DNA of 64,000 nucleotides from Aquimarina sp. Aq107. Lineage in GTDB: Bacteria; Bacteroidota; Bacteroidia; Flavobacteriales; Flavobacteriaceae. Below the pieces are notes generated by a model, which did not search any database, had not been told where the DNA came from, and worked only from the letters and a program-made list of their open reading frames with translations. Below, piece after piece: positions 1,297-9,550 of this stretch. Where the stretch lies: contig NZ_OX030782.1 in assembly GCF_943733665.1 (NCBI RefSeq), forward strand, positions 3,210,501 to 3,274,500, read 5' to 3'. Both the position numbers and the translations under genes were made by a program. The stretch's first letter is position 1; each line of letters starts with the position of its first letter.

Positions 1297-1602
1297 ATGA
1301 AAGATTTCGAAGAACAAAAAAGATACGAACGCGCAAAAGAACGAGTAGACGAACTAAAGAAATTTTATAACAATCTCTTTACTTACATTATCATTATTGG
1401 ACTTCTTGCAGGGATAAATTATTACACTAATGAATGGCGTTATGCCTGGTTCTTATGGGCTGCATTTGGTTGGGGAATAGGTTTGGCTTTTCATGCTGTT
1501 AAAGCATATAGAATTAATCCTATGTTTGATAAAGATTGGGAGGAACGTAGAATCAGAAAATATATGGATGAAGAAGATAAAGAAAAACAACTTTGGGAAT
1601 AA
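1297..1602 (+). CDS. 2TM-domain membrane protein, array member 5
   Basis: 101 aa. RYERAKERVDELKKFYNNLF, two membrane helices with FGWGIGLAFHAVKAY in the second, and DWEERRIRKYMDEEDKE at the end. It is the most diverged of the complete copies and has the shortest loop. It is followed 85 bp later by the amidohydrolase gene. The array is closed by a LytTR regulator two genes downstream, consistent with the family's usual link to LytS/LytTR signalling. Confidence 0.86.
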   Translation: MKDFEEQKRYERAKERVDELKKFYNNLFTYIIIIGLLAGINYYTNEWRYAWFLWAAFGWGIGLAFHAVKAYRINPMFDKDWEERRIRKYMDEEDKEKQLWE

Positions 1603-1687
1603 TTGATTTTTTAGATCGTGTTTCCCATAATTACAAAAGGATTTAATACAATAAGAATTCTAATAATCTTTTTAAAGATCAATCAAA

Positions 1688-2830
1688 ATGAAAACACTTA
1701 TTCATCTAATTATATTATTCTTTATCAGCTTACTTAGTAATGCTCAAGAATCTTTTATCATTAAAGATGTAACCATTTTTGATGGTGAGAAAGTGATCCC
1801 AAAAACATCCATCCTTATAGAAAACGGAGCTATTTCCAAAATTGCTAAATCAATAAATCGCAACGCTACAGTTATTAATGGAAATGGTAAATTCTTAATG
1901 CCTGCAATGACTAATTGCCATGTACATGCTTGGGGAATTCCTATTTTACAACAAGCTGTAGAAGCTGGTGTATTTAATCTATTAGATATGCATGGTGTTG
2001 AACCTTACCAAGGGATGATGAAAACATATAGAGATTCTACAAATTATGCTCGTTTCTTTGTAGCCGGATATGCTGCCACCGCGCCAGATGGACACGGAAC
2101 GCAATATGGTTTTCCTGTTCCTACCCTCACTAAACCTGAGGATGCAATTAAATATATAGCAGATAGAGTAAAAGCGGGTGTAGACCACATTAAAATAATT
2201 GTAGAACCATGGAAACCTACATTATCCCACGAAACCGTTAAATCGATTATTGATGAAGGTCATAAGAACAAAAAAAAGGTGGTAGTACATGTTTCTAAAA
2301 TGAATGACGGATATCAAGTTCTAAATAATAATGCCGATGGATTAGTCCATATCTGGAGAGATACTCCAATGCCAGAAGATCAGTTACAACAATTAGTAAA
2401 AGAAAAAGATTTTTTTGTAATCCCTACACTTCTGGTTTCCATAGAAGTTCAAAAGAAACGAAAAAATAAAACTGCTGAAGAAACTGCAAAAATGGAAGTG
2501 TTTTTGAAAAAAGAAGTAAAACGATTACACGATGCAGGAGTCCCTATTTTAGCAGGAACTGATCCTCCAAATGTGGATATTAACTATGGAACCGATCTTT
2601 ATAAAGAATTAATTTTAATGTCTGAAGCAGGTATACCAAATGAAGAAGTCTTAAAAGGAGCTACCTCATTACCAGCAGATAAATTTAAACTAGGAAAAAT
2701 AGGATATATAAAAGAAGGGTATATTGCTGATCTTTTATTATTAGATAAAAACCCAATAGAAGATATTACACATATAAATACGATGGTATCTATGTGGAAA
2801 GCTGGAAAAAAAGTACAAACAAAAAAGTAA
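1688..2830 (+). CDS. secreted amidohydrolase-family protein
   Basis: 380 aa with an N-terminal signal peptide (hydrophobic to about residue 17, likely cut after NAQ20). The body is a metal-dependent amidohydrolase of the imidazolonepropionase/prolidase-like branch: an N-terminal composite domain, the metal-binding HxH (H78, H80, in TNCHVHAWG), a histidine strand VVVHVSKM in the middle, the conserved aspartate in LAGTDPPN (D292) and a C-terminal KxGYIADLLLLDKNP strand. The usual PGLID-x-HxH sequence is changed to PAMTNCHVH, with Asn in place of Asp. The substrate is not predictable; the signal peptide places it in the periplasm. It lies between the 2TM array and the LytTR regulator, all on one strand, so it may be in the same operon. 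Confidence 0.85.
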   Translation: MKTLIHLIILFFISLLSNAQESFIIKDVTIFDGEKVIPKTSILIENGAISKIAKSINRNATVINGNGKFLMPAMTNCHVHAWGIPILQQAVEAGVFNLLDMHGVEPYQGMMKTYRDSTNYARFFVAGYAATAPDGHGTQYGFPVPTLTKPEDAIKYIADRVKAGVDHIKIIVEPWKPTLSHETVKSIIDEGHKNKKKVVVHVSKMNDGYQVLNNNADGLVHIWRDTPMPEDQLQQLVKEKDFFVIPTLLVSIEVQKKRKNKTAEETAKMEVFLKKEVKRLHDAGVPILAGTDPPNVDINYGTDLYKELILMSEAGIPNEEVLKGATSLPADKFKLGKIGYIKEGYIADLLLLDKNPIEDITHINTMVSMWKAGKKVQTKK

Positions 2831-2843
2831 TTTTAATTAAACT

Positions 2844-3599
2844 ATGAACGTAATAATAATCGAAGACGAAAAACCTGCTGCTAGAAGACTAGGACGTATG
2901 CTAGATGATCTAGGTATTAAGATCAATACAATGCTTCATTCTGTTAGTGAATCTATTGAATGGTTTAGTAATAATGAACATCCTGATTTGATATTTTTAG
3001 ATATCCAATTAAGTGATGGGTTATCGTTCGAGATTTTTGATGCAATTGCAATCAAAAGTTCAATTATTTTTACAACTGCCTATGATGAATACGCATTAAA
3101 AGCCTTTAAATTAAACAGCATTGATTATCTACTAAAACCAATTGATGACGAGGAATTAGAAACAGCTGTAAAAAAATATAAAGATCAAGCATCACCAAAT
3201 CAATCAATTCAAGTAGATTTTGAAGATATCAAAAAACTGTTGGTCAATCCAATAGATAGAGTCTATAAAAAGCGTTTTACTGCGCGTGTGGGTCAGCATC
3301 TTAAAATATTTTCTGTAGAAGATATCGAATGCTTTTATTCAGAAAACAAAGGAACATACCTTCATACAAAAGAAAATAGAAATTATCTTATTGACACTAC
3401 TTTAGAATCTCTAGAAGACGAATTAAATCCACAGCAATTTTATAGAGTGAATCGCAAATTCTATGTAAATATAAATGCGATAAAAGACATCATCTCGTAT
3501 ACCAATTCTAGATTACAAATCAAACTAAACCATTTTAATGAACAAGAAATCATTGTCGCCAGAGAACGTGTTAAAGATTTTAAAGATTGGTTGGAGTAG
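2844..3599 (+). CDS. LytTR-family response regulator
   Basis: 251 aa. Residues 1-120 form a receiver domain: acidic pair ED7-8, phospho-acceptor D53 in PDLIFLDIQL, the TTAYDEYA strand and the LLKPI lysine. Residues about 145-251 form a LytTR DNA-binding domain (FYSENKGTYLHTK, FYRVNRKFYVNINAI). The start is 13 bp after the amidohydrolase stop. The cognate LytS-type kinase is not in the window; the 2TM proteins upstream suggest it lies just before base 1 (inference). A strong hairpin follows the stop. Confidence 0.93.
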   Translation: MNVIIIEDEKPAARRLGRMLDDLGIKINTMLHSVSESIEWFSNNEHPDLIFLDIQLSDGLSFEIFDAIAIKSSIIFTTAYDEYALKAFKLNSIDYLLKPIDDEELETAVKKYKDQASPNQSIQVDFEDIKKLLVNPIDRVYKKRFTARVGQHLKIFSVEDIECFYSENKGTYLHTKENRNYLIDTTLESLEDELNPQQFYRVNRKFYVNINAIKDIISYTNSRLQIKLNHFNEQEIIVARERVKDFKDWLE

Positions 3600-3601
3600 A
3601 C

Positions 3602-3638
3602 AAAAAAAGCCTTAAGATTTAAAAATCTTAAGGCTTTT
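3602..3638. terminator. bidirectional rho-independent terminator
   Basis: Perfect inverted repeat GCCTTAAGATTT / AATCTTAAGGC flanked by A-tracts on the left and T-tracts on the right. It lies between two convergent genes and should end both the LytTR operon and the lipoprotein gene on the opposite strand. Confidence 0.9.
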
Positions 3639-3674
3639 GGGAAAATAATAATAAATAAAACTACAATTATTCTT

Positions 3675-5090
3675 CTATATCGCTACAATTCCTTGTGTAT
3701 TTGTATCTGGAAGATTACCTGACTCTTCACCTATTGGGCTAAGTGTTTGTCCATTAACTCCAAAGATTCCAATAGTACCATCTAATCCATATAACTGGTA
3801 TAAGAAAGCTCCATCATCAGAAATCCACATATCAATCCATCCTTCTGTAGTTCCAAATGCAGCACCAGGATCTGTAGTATTACCTGTAGCTCCTACACCT
3901 TGAGCAGCTGTTTGATCTAACAAGGTTACGACACCGTTATTAAAGCTAAAGGATGCCAGACCAGCTTCTATAGCATTTGATACGAAAAACGTATTTCCAT
4001 CTGATGTAAAATCTAACCAGCAAGCCGTTCTTCCTGTGTTTCCTTCTCCCGATCGAACATCTAAGTTAACATCTACTAATTGATCTCCATCAATTCTCCA
4101 TGTAGAAACCGAACCATCTTGTAATGCTGGAAATGCTGGTGGTGCTCCATTATATTGAAATTCTCTAGCCTCAGTAACAACCGCATATAATTCTCCATCT
4201 GTTCCTCTAACAATCTGAGATCCAATTGCTGAAGGAAGATTTCTTTGTTCTGTATTTCCTCTTAAAGTAGAAGTAGTGCCATCTAATCTAGTAAGTGAAC
4301 CTCCATTAATACCAAATAAAACCACCTCATCTTGATTACCCACTGCAGTACTCCCAGTTCCTAAATTATCTGTAGCGCCTACATCTAAACCTGCAGCTCC
4401 CGCATTAATAGAAGCAACAATCGCATACTCTCCACCAGGAGCAATATATACACAAGACGGTCTGTTATCTAGATTAACAGAAGCTCCAGCAGATTGAAAA
4501 GTTCCATCATCTAATAACCAAAAAGAATCTAAAGTACCTCTATGCATTGGCTCTCCACCATCTAAAAACTCTGAACGAGTAATGTTCGTTACTAGAACCA
4601 AGCTATTTACTCCTGTCATACTTTCTGGTGCTGGATAAGAATCTATACTATTAGGACCTTCGGCAGAAGTTGTCTGAAGAACCGGACTTCCTAAGGAGAA
4701 ATCATCATTTACTGGCAATGCAGAAATTGTGTTACTACCTGCATTTACCGCTAAAATAAATGAGTTATCTCTCGTTTTGGTTATTGCATAAGCAGAAATT
4801 AATGGATCTAATCCTTCTCCACCATCAAAATCACCACCATTACCTCCTGTAGCAACAGGTCCTATTGGAGTTAGTGTTCCATCTACATTTCTACCATAAG
4901 TTACAATAGTATTAGGTCCTTGCTCTACTCCATCTACCTGTCCTTCACCATTTGTCATTGCGTACACCGCTCCTACAAAATTATTAGGTTCTTCTCCCCC
5001 ATCCGGAACGAAATTATCATCATCGTTACACGAAGTAAATATTAATGTTGAGGCCAATAGTATATATAAGCTAAATTTTAGATTTTTCAT
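3675..5090 (-). CDS. beta-propeller (lactonase-like) lipoprotein
   Basis: 471 aa. The N-terminus is a lipoprotein signal (hydrophobic stretch then LIFTSC, lipid-modified Cys about residue 21) followed by an acidic DDDD spacer. The mature part is made of repeated strands typical of six- or seven-bladed propellers (NSFILAVNAGSNTISAL, PSCVYIAPGGEYAIVASIN, DGNTFFVSNAIEAGLASFS), resembling the lactonase/YncE-type NHL-like propellers. No catalytic assignment is possible from sequence alone. It is monocistronic, on the opposite strand from its neighbours. Confidence 0.72.
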   Translation of the reverse strand: MKNLKFSLYILLASTLIFTSCNDDDNFVPDGGEEPNNFVGAVYAMTNGEGQVDGVEQGPNTIVTYGRNVDGTLTPIGPVATGGNGGDFDGGEGLDPLISAYAITKTRDNSFILAVNAGSNTISALPVNDDFSLGSPVLQTTSAEGPNSIDSYPAPESMTGVNSLVLVTNITRSEFLDGGEPMHRGTLDSFWLLDDGTFQSAGASVNLDNRPSCVYIAPGGEYAIVASINAGAAGLDVGATDNLGTGSTAVGNQDEVVLFGINGGSLTRLDGTTSTLRGNTEQRNLPSAIGSQIVRGTDGELYAVVTEAREFQYNGAPPAFPALQDGSVSTWRIDGDQLVDVNLDVRSGEGNTGRTACWLDFTSDGNTFFVSNAIEAGLASFSFNNGVVTLLDQTAAQGVGATGNTTDPGAAFGTTEGWIDMWISDDGAFLYQLYGLDGTIGIFGVNGQTLSPIGEESGNLPDTNTQGIVAI

Positions 5091-5190
5091 TTTGTTTCTT
5101 TTTTTGAGTTTTAGGTTTATGTTTACGTCAAACTTTGCACATTATCTTTTCTTAAAAACAAGACAATGATCAATTTCATTCACATACTAT

Positions 5191-5204
5191 TATTCGGCCG
5201 AATA
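5191..5204. promoter_or_regulatory. 14-bp perfect palindrome, candidate operator
   Basis: TATTCGGCCGAATA is a perfect palindrome with a GC-rich centre in very AT-rich surroundings, about 100 bp upstream of the start of the minus-strand beta-propeller lipoprotein gene. The shape suits a dimeric repressor site; the regulator is unknown. Confidence 0.4.
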
Positions 5205-5472
5205 CAATGCAAAAATCAAGAAATGAAGTACTTTAATTTTTAAGTTTCTTGACTGATATTTGGTACGCTTTATACTTTCCGTACTTACAAGTCTAAAAAA
5301 ATCTATCGAACACAAAAAGAAATTAAAAATACATCAATAAGTTAAATAAAACACTGAAAATCAATATTTTAAATAAAAACAAAGTACTTACACAGGAGTT
5401 ATGGAATCTAGAGTTTTTAGAATAACATTAACATTTATATTAGATAGCTTTAACAAATAAGTGTTCTTAGTA

Positions 5473-5490
5473 ATGTTAGCTAGCTAACAT
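5473..5490. promoter_or_regulatory. 18-bp perfect palindrome, candidate operator
   Basis: ATGTTAGCTAGCTAACAT is perfectly self-complementary over 18 bp and lies about 110 bp upstream of the presumed promoter of the small lipoprotein gene at 5655. It may be a dimer binding site; it has no T-tract, so it is not a terminator. Confidence 0.4.
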
Positions 5491-5601
5491 AAGTCACTAT
5501 CAATTCACCTTCAAGACATACTTAACACTAGAGTAAAAAAGATTTGAATACAATCAGGCATAGGCAACCCTCTTTAAATACTAAAGTTCTAAGTAGTTCT
5601 A

Positions 5602-5609
5602 TAATTTTG
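5602..5609 (+). promoter_or_regulatory. Bacteroidota -7 promoter element
   Basis: TAATTTTG matches the Bacteroidota -7 consensus TAnnTTTG exactly. It lies 45 bp before the ATG at 5655. A clear -33 TTG is not present at the expected distance. Confidence 0.45.
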
Positions 5610-5654
5610 CGCAACCATTTCAATTTTTTACATCTTATAAAAAAGCAAAAGACA

Positions 5655-6074
5655 ATGAACAAACCATTCAAATTAATCGTTATCGTACTATCTTTATTAT
5701 TAACGAATATACAGATGTCTTGTGATGATACAGATAATTGCGAAGATGCTATCTGTACGCTAGTACTGATTAGAATTTCGGTATCAATAACTGATCAGGA
5801 CCAAAATCCTATTGCGTTAGACTCCTATGAAGTGATTAATCTAGAGAATGGAGAAAATATTACAGTTTCATTGCCCCCAGCAGAACAGGAGCAAGAATTA
5901 CAACGAGGACAATACCTATTAATCGAGGATGATGTTCTTGGAGTAAATCAAGTACAACAAATACAGTTTAGAGGATTTATTAATAATCAAGAAGTTATTA
6001 GTAGTGACTACACAGTAAGTACCGATTGTTGTCACGTAAACTTAGTGTCAGGAAACTTAGAGCTTACTATTTAA
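5655..6074 (+). CDS. small lipoprotein of unknown function
   Basis: 139 aa from the ATG at 5655. The open frame extends upstream to a TTG at 5544, but a lipoprotein signal begins exactly at 5655 (MNKPFKLIVIVLSLLL, lipobox IQMSC), so the shorter start is chosen. The mature part is cysteine-containing (DNCEDAIC, DCCHV) and looks like a single beta-rich domain of the carboxypeptidase-regulatory/Ig type. I do not recognise the family. Monocistronic between an AT-rich intergenic region and a convergent acyltransferase gene. Confidence 0.75.
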   Translation: MNKPFKLIVIVLSLLLTNIQMSCDDTDNCEDAICTLVLIRISVSITDQDQNPIALDSYEVINLENGENITVSLPPAEQEQELQRGQYLLIEDDVLGVNQVQQIQFRGFINNQEVISSDYTVSTDCCHVNLVSGNLELTI

Positions 6075-6175
6075 TAAAATACAAAAAAGCTAGAGTATCA
6101 AGCAATTTTGGAGCTTGAGTTATTGATTTTTGAACATTTAATAAATGGGAAATATAAAATACAGAATCCGATATT

Positions 6176-6979
6176 TTAATATTCCCATTGTCTTTTCTTG
6201 TTCAATTCTTCTTCTGCATCTAACTCTTCCTGAGGAATTACTTTAAGAAAAGAAGAATGTTGTTCAATAGCAAATTCCAATTTACTAACGATATCATCTA
6301 CAGTATCATTTTCATAATCAAATTGTAGTGGTTCTTTAATAACCATTGACTGAAGAATTCCTCTTTTTTTGATTCTAATACCTTTTTTATCAAATGATCT
6401 TCTAAAACCATCAATTACTATTGGAATTACTATTGGCTTATATTGTCTAATAATATGCGCAGTCCCTTTACGAATTGGTTTAAATGGTTTAGTAGTTCCC
6501 TGCGGAAATGTAATCACCCACCCATCTTCTAGGGCTCTTTTGATATTAGTAATATCACTCATCTTTACCTGGCGATTGACATCCTGACCTTTTTCTCTCC
6601 AAGTTCTTTCTACAGTAATTGCGCCTGCATATGCTAATATCCTTGCAAGTAAACCGGCATTCATGGTTTCTTTAGCGGCTACATAATAAAGATTAAGTTT
6701 AGGTTTCCATAAATATCCAATGTTTTTAATTGAATCTGTACGACCACTTAAACTGGCATTAAAAACATGAAACATGGCAACCACATCAGCGAAATAAGTC
6801 TGATGATTAGAAACAAATAATACATTATTATCAGGAAGTTCTTTAAAAATTTCACTTCCTTCTATTTGTAACTCATTAAAGCCTCTATAACGACGATGCG
6901 TCATAGATCCCATAATTCTAATAAGCCATTTTTTCAGGAATAATATATGTCCAAAAGGATTTCTTTTAAATAATCCCAT
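6176..6979 (-). CDS. 1-acyl-glycerol-3-phosphate acyltransferase (PlsC-like), variant motifs
   Basis: 267 aa, of PlsC/LPLAT type, likely membrane-associated and involved in phospholipid or lipid A acylation. The acceptor motif reads NHQTYFAD (H59, D65), so His and Asp are five residues apart (HX5D) where the family normally has HX4D. Motif III reads FPQGTT (Q160) where FPEGTR is usual. Hydrophobic strands and the PIVIPIVIDGF block (motif IV position) are kept. Both changes occur in an otherwise intact protein, so this is probably a distinct subfamily rather than a decayed gene, but catalysis by the standard His-Asp dyad should not be assumed. Convergent with the lipoprotein gene at 5655. Confidence 0.8.
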   Translation of the reverse strand: MGLFKRNPFGHILFLKKWLIRIMGSMTHRRYRGFNELQIEGSEIFKELPDNNVLFVSNHQTYFADVVAMFHVFNASLSGRTDSIKNIGYLWKPKLNLYYVAAKETMNAGLLARILAYAGAITVERTWREKGQDVNRQVKMSDITNIKRALEDGWVITFPQGTTKPFKPIRKGTAHIIRQYKPIVIPIVIDGFRRSFDKKGIRIKKRGILQSMVIKEPLQFDYENDTVDDIVSKLEFAIEQHSSFLKVIPQEELDAEEELNKKRQWEY

Positions 6980-7147: not shown

Positions 7148-7792
7148 TCATACCTCTAACGCAGATTTTATAAAGATTTTAAGTTCACTAAGCATCATTG
7201 CTGTTGCTCCCCAAACAACGTAACCATTTAATTCAAAGGAAGGTACTTCAATATTTTCTGCATAAGAAGTAGATAATTTTTTAGCAATTACATTGCTTTC
7301 ATCTAACAATTGGGATAAAGGTACTTCTATTATCTCAGCTACTTCTTCTTCTTGTTTTACGAAATTTGGTAATCCATTGGAAACTCCTAAGAACGGATGT
7401 ACCCAAAAATTAGATGGAGGTATGTACACTTTTGTTAATTGTTTCAATACTTCGATTAAATCAGAATTCACGCCTATTTCTTCTCTAGTTTCACGTAATG
7501 CAGCTTCTTCATAGTTCTTATCGAATTGCTCCACCTTGCCACCAGGTAATGCTACCTGTCCGGAATGCACTCCTTCATACGTTGGGCGTAAAATTAATGC
7601 TAAATGTGTAATATTTCCCTTAGGATAAAAAAGCATCATAACAGCTGCATTTCTGGGATTCTTCTCCGCTATCTTAATTTTATAAAGCTCCTGTTTTCTT
7701 ATTTCTGGAGCCATAATAAAATGAGAAGATTCTCCAGGCACCGACATTTTCTGTATTTTTGGAATTAATTTTTTAAATGTTTCGAATGTCAT
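7148..7792 (-). CDS. Nudix hydrolase, CoA pyrophosphatase (NudL) type
   Basis: 214 aa. It carries the coenzyme A pyrophosphatase signature ILRPTYEGVHSGQVALPGGK directly followed by the Nudix box ending in ALRETREEIGV (metal-binding RExxEE). Such enzymes hydrolyse CoA and acyl-CoA to 3',5'-ADP and 4'-phosphopantetheine with Mg or Mn. The start codon at 7790-7792 lies inside the 5' end of the divergent cyclophilin gene; an internal ATG (about 7747) would remove the overlap but would shorten the conserved N-terminal region (FKKLIPKIQKMSVPG). Confidence 0.87.
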   Translation of the reverse strand: MTFETFKKLIPKIQKMSVPGESSHFIMAPEIRKQELYKIKIAEKNPRNAAVMMLFYPKGNITHLALILRPTYEGVHSGQVALPGGKVEQFDKNYEEAALRETREEIGVNSDLIEVLKQLTKVYIPPSNFWVHPFLGVSNGLPNFVKQEEEVAEIIEVPLSQLLDESNVIAKKLSTSYAENIEVPSFELNGYVVWGATAMMLSELKIFIKSALEV

Positions 7793-8544
7793 TAACCCGA
7801 TTGATTTTAGTATTAGGTTTCGTTAGTGTTTTTGTATTCTATAGTTGTGAAGATACACAATCTAAAAAAACTAAACAGCCAGTTGTAGAAAATGAAAAAG
7901 ACAATTCTGGGCAAAGTACTATGACTCAGAAAGATTCGCTAAAAACTACCAAAAAAGAAAAGAACAATATTTCTAAAACTACGGATAAAGAGCCATTTAA
8001 ATTGGCCAATGCTAACATGAAAGAGTTTTTATTACAATATGGTAAAGAAAACCCAGAAACTTTAGTTCGTATTAGCACCAAATTTGGAGATATTGATATT
8101 AAACTTTATAAAGAATCTCCTATACATCGAGCTAACTTTATTTATCTAGTTAAACAAAAATATTTTGATGAGACTTTCTTTTATCGTGTTGCCAAAGGTT
8201 TTGTTATTCAAGGTGGAAATAGTGATCGTACTCAAATGGCTCAAAAGCGTCACGATATTGGAGATTATACATTACCCCAAGAACCAATAAAAGGTCTTAA
8301 ACACAACAGAGGATCAGTGGCCTTATCAAAGCAATGGGTTAATAATCCTTCTAATCGTTCTACTCCATATGAGTTTTTTATTGTGATTGCCAAAGAAGGA
8401 GCTCCTCATCTGAATGGAGAACATACAATCTTTGGGAAGGTTGTAAAAGGTATGAGTGTGGCTGATAAAATCTCTAACGTTCCTGTAGATGGTAGCGAAT
8501 GGCCTAAAGAAAATATATTTATAAAAGCAGAAGTAATTCAATAA
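7777..8544 (+). CDS. lipoprotein cyclophilin-type peptidyl-prolyl isomerase
   Basis: 255 aa. Lipoprotein signal (hydrophobic LILVLGFVSVFVF then YSC, Cys 24), a Lys/Asp/Thr-rich linker to about residue 85, then a cyclophilin domain: FGDIDIKLYKESPIHRANF, FYRVAKGFVIQGGN (the FxxxxxFxxQGG core) and PYEFFIVIAKEGAPHLNGEHTIFG. It should accelerate proline isomerisation of envelope proteins. The ATG at 7777 overlaps the divergent Nudix gene by 16 bp; the in-frame ATG at 7786 cuts this to 7 bp and gives an equally good signal peptide. Confidence 0.9.
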   Translation: MFRMSLTRLILVLGFVSVFVFYSCEDTQSKKTKQPVVENEKDNSGQSTMTQKDSLKTTKKEKNNISKTTDKEPFKLANANMKEFLLQYGKENPETLVRISTKFGDIDIKLYKESPIHRANFIYLVKQKYFDETFFYRVAKGFVIQGGNSDRTQMAQKRHDIGDYTLPQEPIKGLKHNRGSVALSKQWVNNPSNRSTPYEFFIVIAKEGAPHLNGEHTIFGKVVKGMSVADKISNVPVDGSEWPKENIFIKAEVIQ

Positions 8545-8547
8545 ATA

Positions 8548-8579
8548 GCTGTCTAAAAAATTATAATCTTCTAGACAGC
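8548..8579. terminator. hairpin terminator between convergent genes
   Basis: GCTGTCTA and TAGACAGC form an 8-bp stem around an AT-rich loop just after the cyclophilin stop and just after (on the other strand) the RiPP precursor stop. There is no long T-tract, so efficiency is uncertain. Confidence 0.55.
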
Positions 8580-8592
8580 CATCATCAAGAGC

Positions 8593-8754
8593 TTAGCAAG
8601 GATCAGCTATTGTTTCACACTGACAGGTATTACGAGTACCTACGGCATGCTTTACACGCTCTTTATATGGGCCCATAGGATGTGCCAATCCTCCCTTTAG
8701 CTTAGAAATAGTTTCTTTTCGCAATGCTAAGTGTTTAAAACTCTTTGCTTTCAT
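8593..8754 (-). CDS. RiPP precursor, class I lanthipeptide-like, orphan
   Basis: 53-codon ORF. The N-terminal half is a leader with the pattern LALRKETISKLKGG (residues 9-22): an LxLxKETI-type recognition segment, as in leaders of Bacteroidota class I lanthipeptides, ending in a double glycine. The C-terminal half (residues 23-53) is a core with three Thr (40, 43, 48) and three Cys (44, 46, 53), ending NTCQCETIADPC, enough for up to three methyllanthionine rings. No Ser is present in the core. No lanB, lanC, LanT or protease gene is seen anywhere in the window, so modification would have to be in trans. It lies 82 bp after the RDD gene on the same strand and could share its transcript. Family assignment is by leader pattern only. 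Confidence 0.75.
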   Translation of the reverse strand: MKAKSFKHLALRKETISKLKGGLAHPMGPYKERVKHAVGTRNTCQCETIADPC

Positions 8755-8836
8755 GATATTTGATTTTATGATTTATATCAATATATCAATCATCATAAAA
8801 AATTGTTACCCTAAAAAATAGATTGATACTCCAATT

Positions 8837-9550
8837 CTATTTCTGTGTATAATAATTATAATCTTCTAATACTTTAGATAGAAACTGTATTGGTTTTTCT
8901 TGTGGAGTGATCTGCATAATACTACTTACTTTGTTAGATAGTTGCAAAATAACATTATGATTTCCATTTCTTTTTGCATCCTGGTAGATACCTTTAATTT
9001 TACGCATCTCACTATCGTCAAACACCGTCACTTGAGGATAAACGGGTTTATAATCATCTGGAATATCGACTAAAATAGTTTGATTGAATCTTACTTTTTG
9101 TTTTTCACTAATCACTGTTGTTCCTGCTGCCATATCTCCTAGTCTTTGGCCAGTTCCCTTAAATAATATTGCAACTACCGCAATTCCTCCTGACGCTAGT
9201 GTGATATCAATCAACCTAAGTAACCATCTTATTAAATACCCTGAAAAGGCAGGTCTAGATCCATCTAATCGAACAACACGTATCTTCATAGTTGCTTTTC
9301 CGGGAGTTCTACCATCCCAAAAAGTTTCCCATAATAAAAAGTAAAGAAAAGGAGGTAAACCTACTACCATCCAGAATGCCCACTCATCCGCCATTCCTAA
9401 ATCCAAAGCAGCTACAATTAAGATTACAACAATAAAATAGGCGATGATTATCAACAAGTCTACTAAATATGCCAAGATTCGTTCCCCTATTCCAGCAGTA
9501 TTTTGCTGTATACTCACATTTTGAGCTGTTTCTATTTGAAAATTATCCAT
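8837..9550 (-). CDS. RDD-family membrane protein
   Basis: 237 aa. N-terminal RDD domain: GIGERILAYLVDLLIIIAYF, then LLWETFWDGRTPGKATMKIR and SGYLIRWLLRLID, with Arg-Asp-Asp-type polar residues in three membrane helices up to about residue 145. The C-terminal third is soluble and charged. Role unknown (RDD proteins are implicated in ion or solute transport). It is divergent to, and 36 bp from, the SpoIIM-like gene; RDD, SpoIIM, MoxR and DUF58 genes are commonly clustered in Bacteroidota. Confidence 0.88.
   Translation of the reverse strand: MDNFQIETAQNVSIQQNTAGIGERILAYLVDLLIIIAYFIVVILIVAALDLGMADEWAFWMVVGLPPFLYFLLWETFWDGRTPGKATMKIRVVRLDGSRPAFSGYLIRWLLRLIDITLASGGIAVVAILFKGTGQRLGDMAAGTTVISEKQKVRFNQTILVDIPDDYKPVYPQVTVFDDSEMRKIKGIYQDAKRNGNHNVILQLSNKVSSIMQITPQEKPIQFLSKVLEDYNYYTQK

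Follow-up and report, generated by a model that had tools for sequence, protein, structure and literature searches.

Does a short open reading frame (ORF) with a lanthipeptide-like leader, standing away from any lanthipeptide enzyme, represent a functional precursor gene, and if so, how would its product be matured? The question is raised by an ORF at 8593..8754, on the minus strand of the window, which is the whole stretch of 64,000 nucleotides analysed here from the complete genome (5,500,051 bases) of Aquimarina sp. Aq107. It starts with ATG and encodes 53 amino acids before the stop codon, MKAKSFKHLALRKETISKLKGG followed by LAHPMGPYKERVKHAVGTRNTCQCETIADPC, with the predicted cleavage point after Gly-Gly between the two. 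The earlier note had described a 53-codon ORF between convergent genes, with a Ser-free core that holds three Thr and three Cys, and the translation and coordinates agree with it: the 31 residues past the Gly-Gly carry Thr40, Thr43 and Thr48 as well as Cys44, Cys46 and Cys53, Ser is absent, and the genes of a cyclophilin-type peptidyl-prolyl isomerase (7777..8544, plus strand; Pfam PF00160) and of an RDD-family membrane protein (8837..9550, minus strand; Pfam PF06271), the upstream neighbour here, face each other around the ORF. We do not regard either neighbour as belonging to the pathway.

The peptide gene, its conservation and its surroundings

The leader pattern was present in one of the 83 small ORFs (35–120 aa) of the window, versus none of the 7762 ORFs from 60 randomised windows in which dinucleotide frequencies were preserved, and a Pfam search on the peptide gave only one weak, meaningless match. 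Using nine orthologues as queries, orthologues over the full or nearly full peptide were found in 22 of the 66 Aquimarina genomes, the window's own included, at E values of 3.7e-25 or better; at E values up to 1, matches were obtained in 43 of the 66, a count that takes in leader-only and chance matches. Among named records, 19 orthologue loci were located, 18 of them from Aquimarina and one from a metagenome-assembled "Bacteroidia bacterium", by means of two exact peptide words, a search that relatives lacking these words would escape, and a further relative with one extra residue was found in a named record (L071). The peptide is full-length in 21 copies, and the 22nd (G056; L044 1501-1653) is altered and has a shorter end, so that two core Thr and two Cys are left and the last Thr and Cys are gone, in a genome where LanB and LanC are present.

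Analysis of the 21 full-length copies revealed a pN/pS of 0.128 for the predicted core (residues 23-53; 8596..8688, minus strand) and of 0.300 for the leader, with a mean pS of 0.52–0.64, values computed for the peptide gene alone, from pairs of copies that include related ones. Since mean pS is near saturation, the true ratios are probably lower than those computed. The core is under purifying selection. It varies only at positions 24, 29, 32, 33, 36, 37, 41, and 51 in these copies, and the conserved Thr/Ser with downstream Cys that is expected of a class I core was found in 21 of the 22 copies, in which all three Thr and all three Cys are fixed. Neutral drift of the core in relatives, which had been named as a sign against a functional peptide, is thus not what the ratio of about 0.13 indicates, and the absence of Ser holds for the window's copy but not for some relatives, which have Ser at 51 or 24.

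No relative of the core was found outside the genus in 397 genomes of the family (237 genera, with up to 17 candidates scored per genome). Five of these genomes gave other matches at E 0.01, four of them through the leader or little more, and the fifth (G121) proved to be a broken frame with no real likeness. Spread on phages was considered and rejected, as none of the four pattern matches in viral contigs was confirmed, and no match to plasmids was obtained either.

The cyclophilin gene adjoins the peptide gene on the opposite strand in all 22 carriers, according to coordinates compared by eye, and it is regarded as the constant neighbour because the RDD gene is non-adjacent in several of them. 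On a tree of this cyclophilin, which covers 42 genomes (the 22 carriers and 20 hand-chosen genomes out of 44 non-carriers) and is weakly resolved in places, the presence of the peptide gene changes at least nine times. Fourteen of the 20 non-carriers retrieved have no ORF of at least 120 aa between their cyclophilin and RDD genes, which are separated by 18 to 317 bases. The non-carriers G018 and G028 have probably lost the gene, since both sit among carriers on the tree, and G028 has LanB and LanC. The simplest story is that of an old presence at one place, followed by repeated loss.

Upstream of the gene (8768..8810, minus strand) lies the element GGTAACA-N15-TGATAT-N5-TATAAATCAT, and the consensus GGTAACA-N14/15-TGATAT-N5-TATAAATCAT-N13-15-ATG was present in 23 of 23 copies (those of the 22 genomes and that of L071). 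The GGTAACA/TGATAT element is probably a promoter, perhaps with an operator. A regulon governed by it was sought and discarded, as two exact patterns each occurred once in the 5.5 Mb genome, at the peptide gene only. On the other side, an inverted repeat at 8548..8579, GCTGTCTA/TAGACAGC, with 8-base arms and a 16-base loop, is likely a terminator common to both convergent genes. For 11 of the 22 copies, the best 3' repeat reported has AAGCGGAC as its arm, in this form or extended, with a T-rich stretch after it, and no 3' inverted repeat was found by the script for G014. No known RNA element in Rfam matched 8500-8900 at E values up to 1.

The patchy presence, which changed at least nine times by gain or loss on the tree of the cyclophilin, and the altered copy of G056 are what could be expected of a chance ORF or of a relic in decay, but we consider this reading extremely improbable in view of the low core ratio and of the upstream element kept in every copy, and for the window's copy it is contradicted by both. 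The ORF is a real gene, neither a chance frame nor a relic, because it is found in a third of the genomes (22 of 66), its core is under purifying selection and its upstream element has been kept. Of the two options left by the earlier note, modification in trans or a relic, the second is therefore dropped, whereas the first is possible because the genome encodes a split LanB and a LanC.

Leader type and genomic enzymes

The leader (residues 1-22; 8689..8754, minus strand) contains the motif LxLxKx5L (L9, L11, K13, L19) and ends in Gly-Gly at 21-22. Across 21 copies, L9, L11, K13, G21 and G22 are invariant, and position 19 is either L or V. In the available part of PMC7268733 (Walker et al. 2020), some Bacteroidetes class I precursors are described with LxLxKx5L in place of FxLD, many of these leaders end in Gly-Gly and a C39 protease is often encoded in the cluster. 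The motif and the Gly-Gly end are both present in the 8593-8754 precursor. Relation to leaders encoded beside LanB was also apparent from two leader models, drawn from 39 different leaders of 28 scanned LanB loci, with the orphan's own locus left out. With the model of the nearest subtype, built on 14 leaders, the ORF ranked first of 503 ORFs (E 2.3e-6), and with that built on all 39 it ranked second of 503 (E 6.4e-5), after a precursor beside the genome's lone LanC; these ranks are biased toward likeness, since the training leaders were chosen by a pattern written after such leaders had been seen. None of the shuffled leaders scored (1857 and 2000 for the two models) did as well as the orphan's. 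Similar leaders exist in related genomes, and the proposal that this leader fits the Bacteroidota class I lanthipeptide type is upheld by the motif, the Gly-Gly and both models.

With the NCBIfam model NF038153, which has a cut-off of 22 bits, the orphan reached about 14.6–14.7. Of the two precursors, both LanC-linked, at the genome's LanC-LanB locus, one scored 22.0 and the other 13.0 bits, from which it follows that the cut-off misses one real-looking subtype; at E values up to 10, this search also matches 5 of the 14 control genomes, none of them above the cut-off.

Genes for LanB and LanC usually lie beside a class I precursor, an arrangement that is not essential. Here, a tblastn search of the window at E 1e-3 with the genome's LanB, its C-terminal partner, LanC and one C39 transporter returned no match, and the LanB and LanC matches of the genome all fall outside the window, as was to be expected from the remark that no such enzyme or transporter is visible in the 64 kb. 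The search of the whole genome that the earlier note proposed was positive: a locus at 4.555–4.558 Mb, 1.3 Mb away from the ORF, encodes a split LanB, made of a LanB of 756 aa (PF04738) and a C-terminal partner of 294 aa (PF14028), together with a LanC of 407 aa, and includes two precursors of similar leader style. A second LanC is encoded at 3.376 Mb, 157 kb off the ORF, with small leader peptides alongside and no LanB. Both class I enzymes are thus present in the genome, not next to the precursor. No LanM, LanKC or LanL fusion of classes II to IV was seen, because the search for LanC domains at E 1e-4 gave two matches and no more, each in a 407-residue open frame. Near the LanB-LanC locus, L004 also encodes (1454-6181) a 1575-residue protein with long tandem repeats, nearly identical to each other, with a unit of about 79 residues.

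LanB and LanC were present together in all 22 carriers versus 24 of the 44 non-carriers (Fisher p 5e-5), and in 22 of 22 versus 23 of 36 at a completeness of at least 90% (p 9e-4), counts made by hand that ignore kinship and concern genomes in which LanB has other substrates. A dedicated LanB orthologue tracking the gene was rejected, as the carriers fall into distant clades of a tree of 39 LanBs (26 from carriers; 41 of the 71 listed LanB places were taken, and L102 and L106, without the search motif, were dropped). One clade contains a LanB from each of nine carriers, in seven of which the coordinates place a C39 gene close by; the remaining thirteen, among them G056 and, by way of its second LanB, G058, have a LanB that groups with that of the window's genome. 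Therefore, either LanBs of both clades accept the leader or it is the substrate of another enzyme.

This last option, a precursor for another modifying enzyme that shares the leader type (e.g., a radical SAM protein), would fit the occurrence of such leaders also away from LanB in the window's genome and the lack of a single LanB clade that tracks the gene. We regard it as quite unlikely, as the order of Thr and Cys permits three thioether rings in the usual direction and no carrier is without LanB and LanC.

The window's genome has three matches to the C39 peptidase, and across the genus such matches were found in 58 of 66 genomes. One of the three was inspected; its frame of 734 residues, with an adaptor-like gene adjacent, looks by eye like a peptidase-ABC transporter. 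Leaders cleaved by C39 peptidases have a Gly-Gly preceded by hydrophobic residues at -4, -7, and -12, and the orphan leader shows the same arrangement. It could then be asked whether the product is simply an unmodified or disulfide-bonded Gly-Gly-leader peptide, such as a pheromone or a class II-like bacteriocin, that contains no lanthionine and leaves the cell through a C39 transporter, an explanation that the abundance of C39 matches, the lack of Lan enzymes in the window and the fixed core, which suits a pheromone, would all accommodate. On the other hand, LxLxK is invariant in 21 copies and resembles the LanB-linked leaders, three Cys is an odd number for disulfides, and Thr and Cys are equal in count and fixed, so we consider such a peptide unlikely.

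Proposed maturation in trans and a possible role

The reading that we favour, with somewhat more confidence than doubt, is that of a stand-alone Bacteroidota class I-type lanthipeptide precursor that is matured in trans and whose product has a specific target or receptor. As we infer the pathway, from leader recognition through ring formation to export and function, the split LanB encoded 1.3 Mb away would bind the LxLxKx5L leader and dehydrate Thr40, Thr43, and Thr48, and LanC would close thioether rings with Cys44, Cys46, and Cys53. Assuming that each Thr is joined to a downstream Cys that is not its neighbour, only the pairs Thr40-Cys44, Thr43-Cys46 and Thr48-Cys53 remain, and under that pairing rule the first two rings would be interlocked. 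A C39 peptidase-transporter would then cleave past the Gly-Gly and export the 31-residue product.

Most likely, the product acts on one specific target or receptor, as a signal or a narrow antibiotic, since its core is nearly fixed, it is encoded at a single locus and it has its own fixed upstream element. A near-fixed product that is often lost and yet does not drift also points to one precise partner, whether receptor or target. The cores of LanB-linked precursors in the genus are varied, and the fixed core of the orphan is unusual beside them, which counts against the favoured reading, as do the distance from any Lan enzyme and the altered core end in G056. Between the two roles, signalling is slightly favoured over a single-target one. 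A more specific and clearly tentative proposal is that of a genus-specific lanthipeptide hormone, that is, a near-invariant stand-alone class I precursor with its own control element, matured by whichever LanB/LanC pair is present; if this were true, shared RiPP enzymes would serve both weapons, with varied precursors, and a fixed signal. If the rings are real, the near-fixed core would make a good test of lanthipeptides as signals in Gram-negative bacteria, and also of how broadly LanB and LanC accept distant substrates.

Known systems and other small peptides of the genus

By its leader, its core and the content of the genome, the orphan appears to belong with the Bacteroidota class I-type precursors. 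To judge from the available part of PMC7268733, the Bacteroidetes class I precursors have the same leader motif, Gly-Gly end and Thr/Cys core, with a split LanB and a LanC in the genome; the search for them reached no more than seven genes from a LanC, whereas the orphan lies at the distances given above from the lone LanC and from the locus of LanB and LanC, and throughout the genus it has a nearly fixed core. The prochlorosins, in the same part of that source, resemble the orphan in having precursors far from the enzyme, but they depend on a class II LanM and have highly diverse cores, in contrast to class I enzymes and one near-fixed core. The predicted rings offer a further comparison. In nisin, rings D and E form an interlocked pair ending in Thr-Cys-x-Cys. 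The predicted Thr40-Cys44/Thr43-Cys46 pair would resemble it, with a first ring one residue larger than that of nisin. The pinensins come from an organism of the same phylum as the window's genome. According to PMC7268733, they are of class I, with a split LanB like that of the orphan's genome, but their genes are clustered and the orphan is alone.

What is new in the orphan is that it stands alone and that its core is nearly fixed, distant precursors being already known for the class II prochlorosins. A search of the openly licensed literature by title and start of the abstract found no unlinked class I precursor in Bacteroidota, and no paper was recognised as treating this gene, including PMC7268733, PMC10734526, PMC10036551, PMC11118758, and PMC8960859 in the portions available. 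From such portions, Aquimarina is described as rich in gene clusters (PMC10734526), and its RiPP potential has been remarked (PMC11118758). Enzyme-centred precursor mining can miss conserved, unlinked class I-type precursors in Bacteroidota.

Other peptides with class I-like leaders were seen scattered over the window's genome, off the LanB-LanC locus, at 2636182-2636797 (L007-L009, three of them close together), 3998183 (L005), 338549 (L012), and 4498550 (L013), of which only L005 exceeds the NF038153 cut-off. Precursor genes of the genus also have in common an upstream element that resembles GGGGAAACCGAAAACCTT-N-AGAGTAGGT and lies about 15–30 bases before the ATG, an observation given without a count. 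It was noticed in L004 near 10931 (minus strand) and before LanB-linked precursors in L035, L045, L089, L091, L093-L095, L097, L100, L116, and L119, and one exact pattern of this type has a single occurrence in the window's genome, in front of a LanC-linked precursor. Finally, other small Gly-Gly peptides share a different upstream element, like TAGACA...TGTCTATAAATGTTCAG, together with an inverted repeat; this set is found in L003 (8962-9207, 9391-9663, and 12601-12780, near a lone LanC), L052, and L117.
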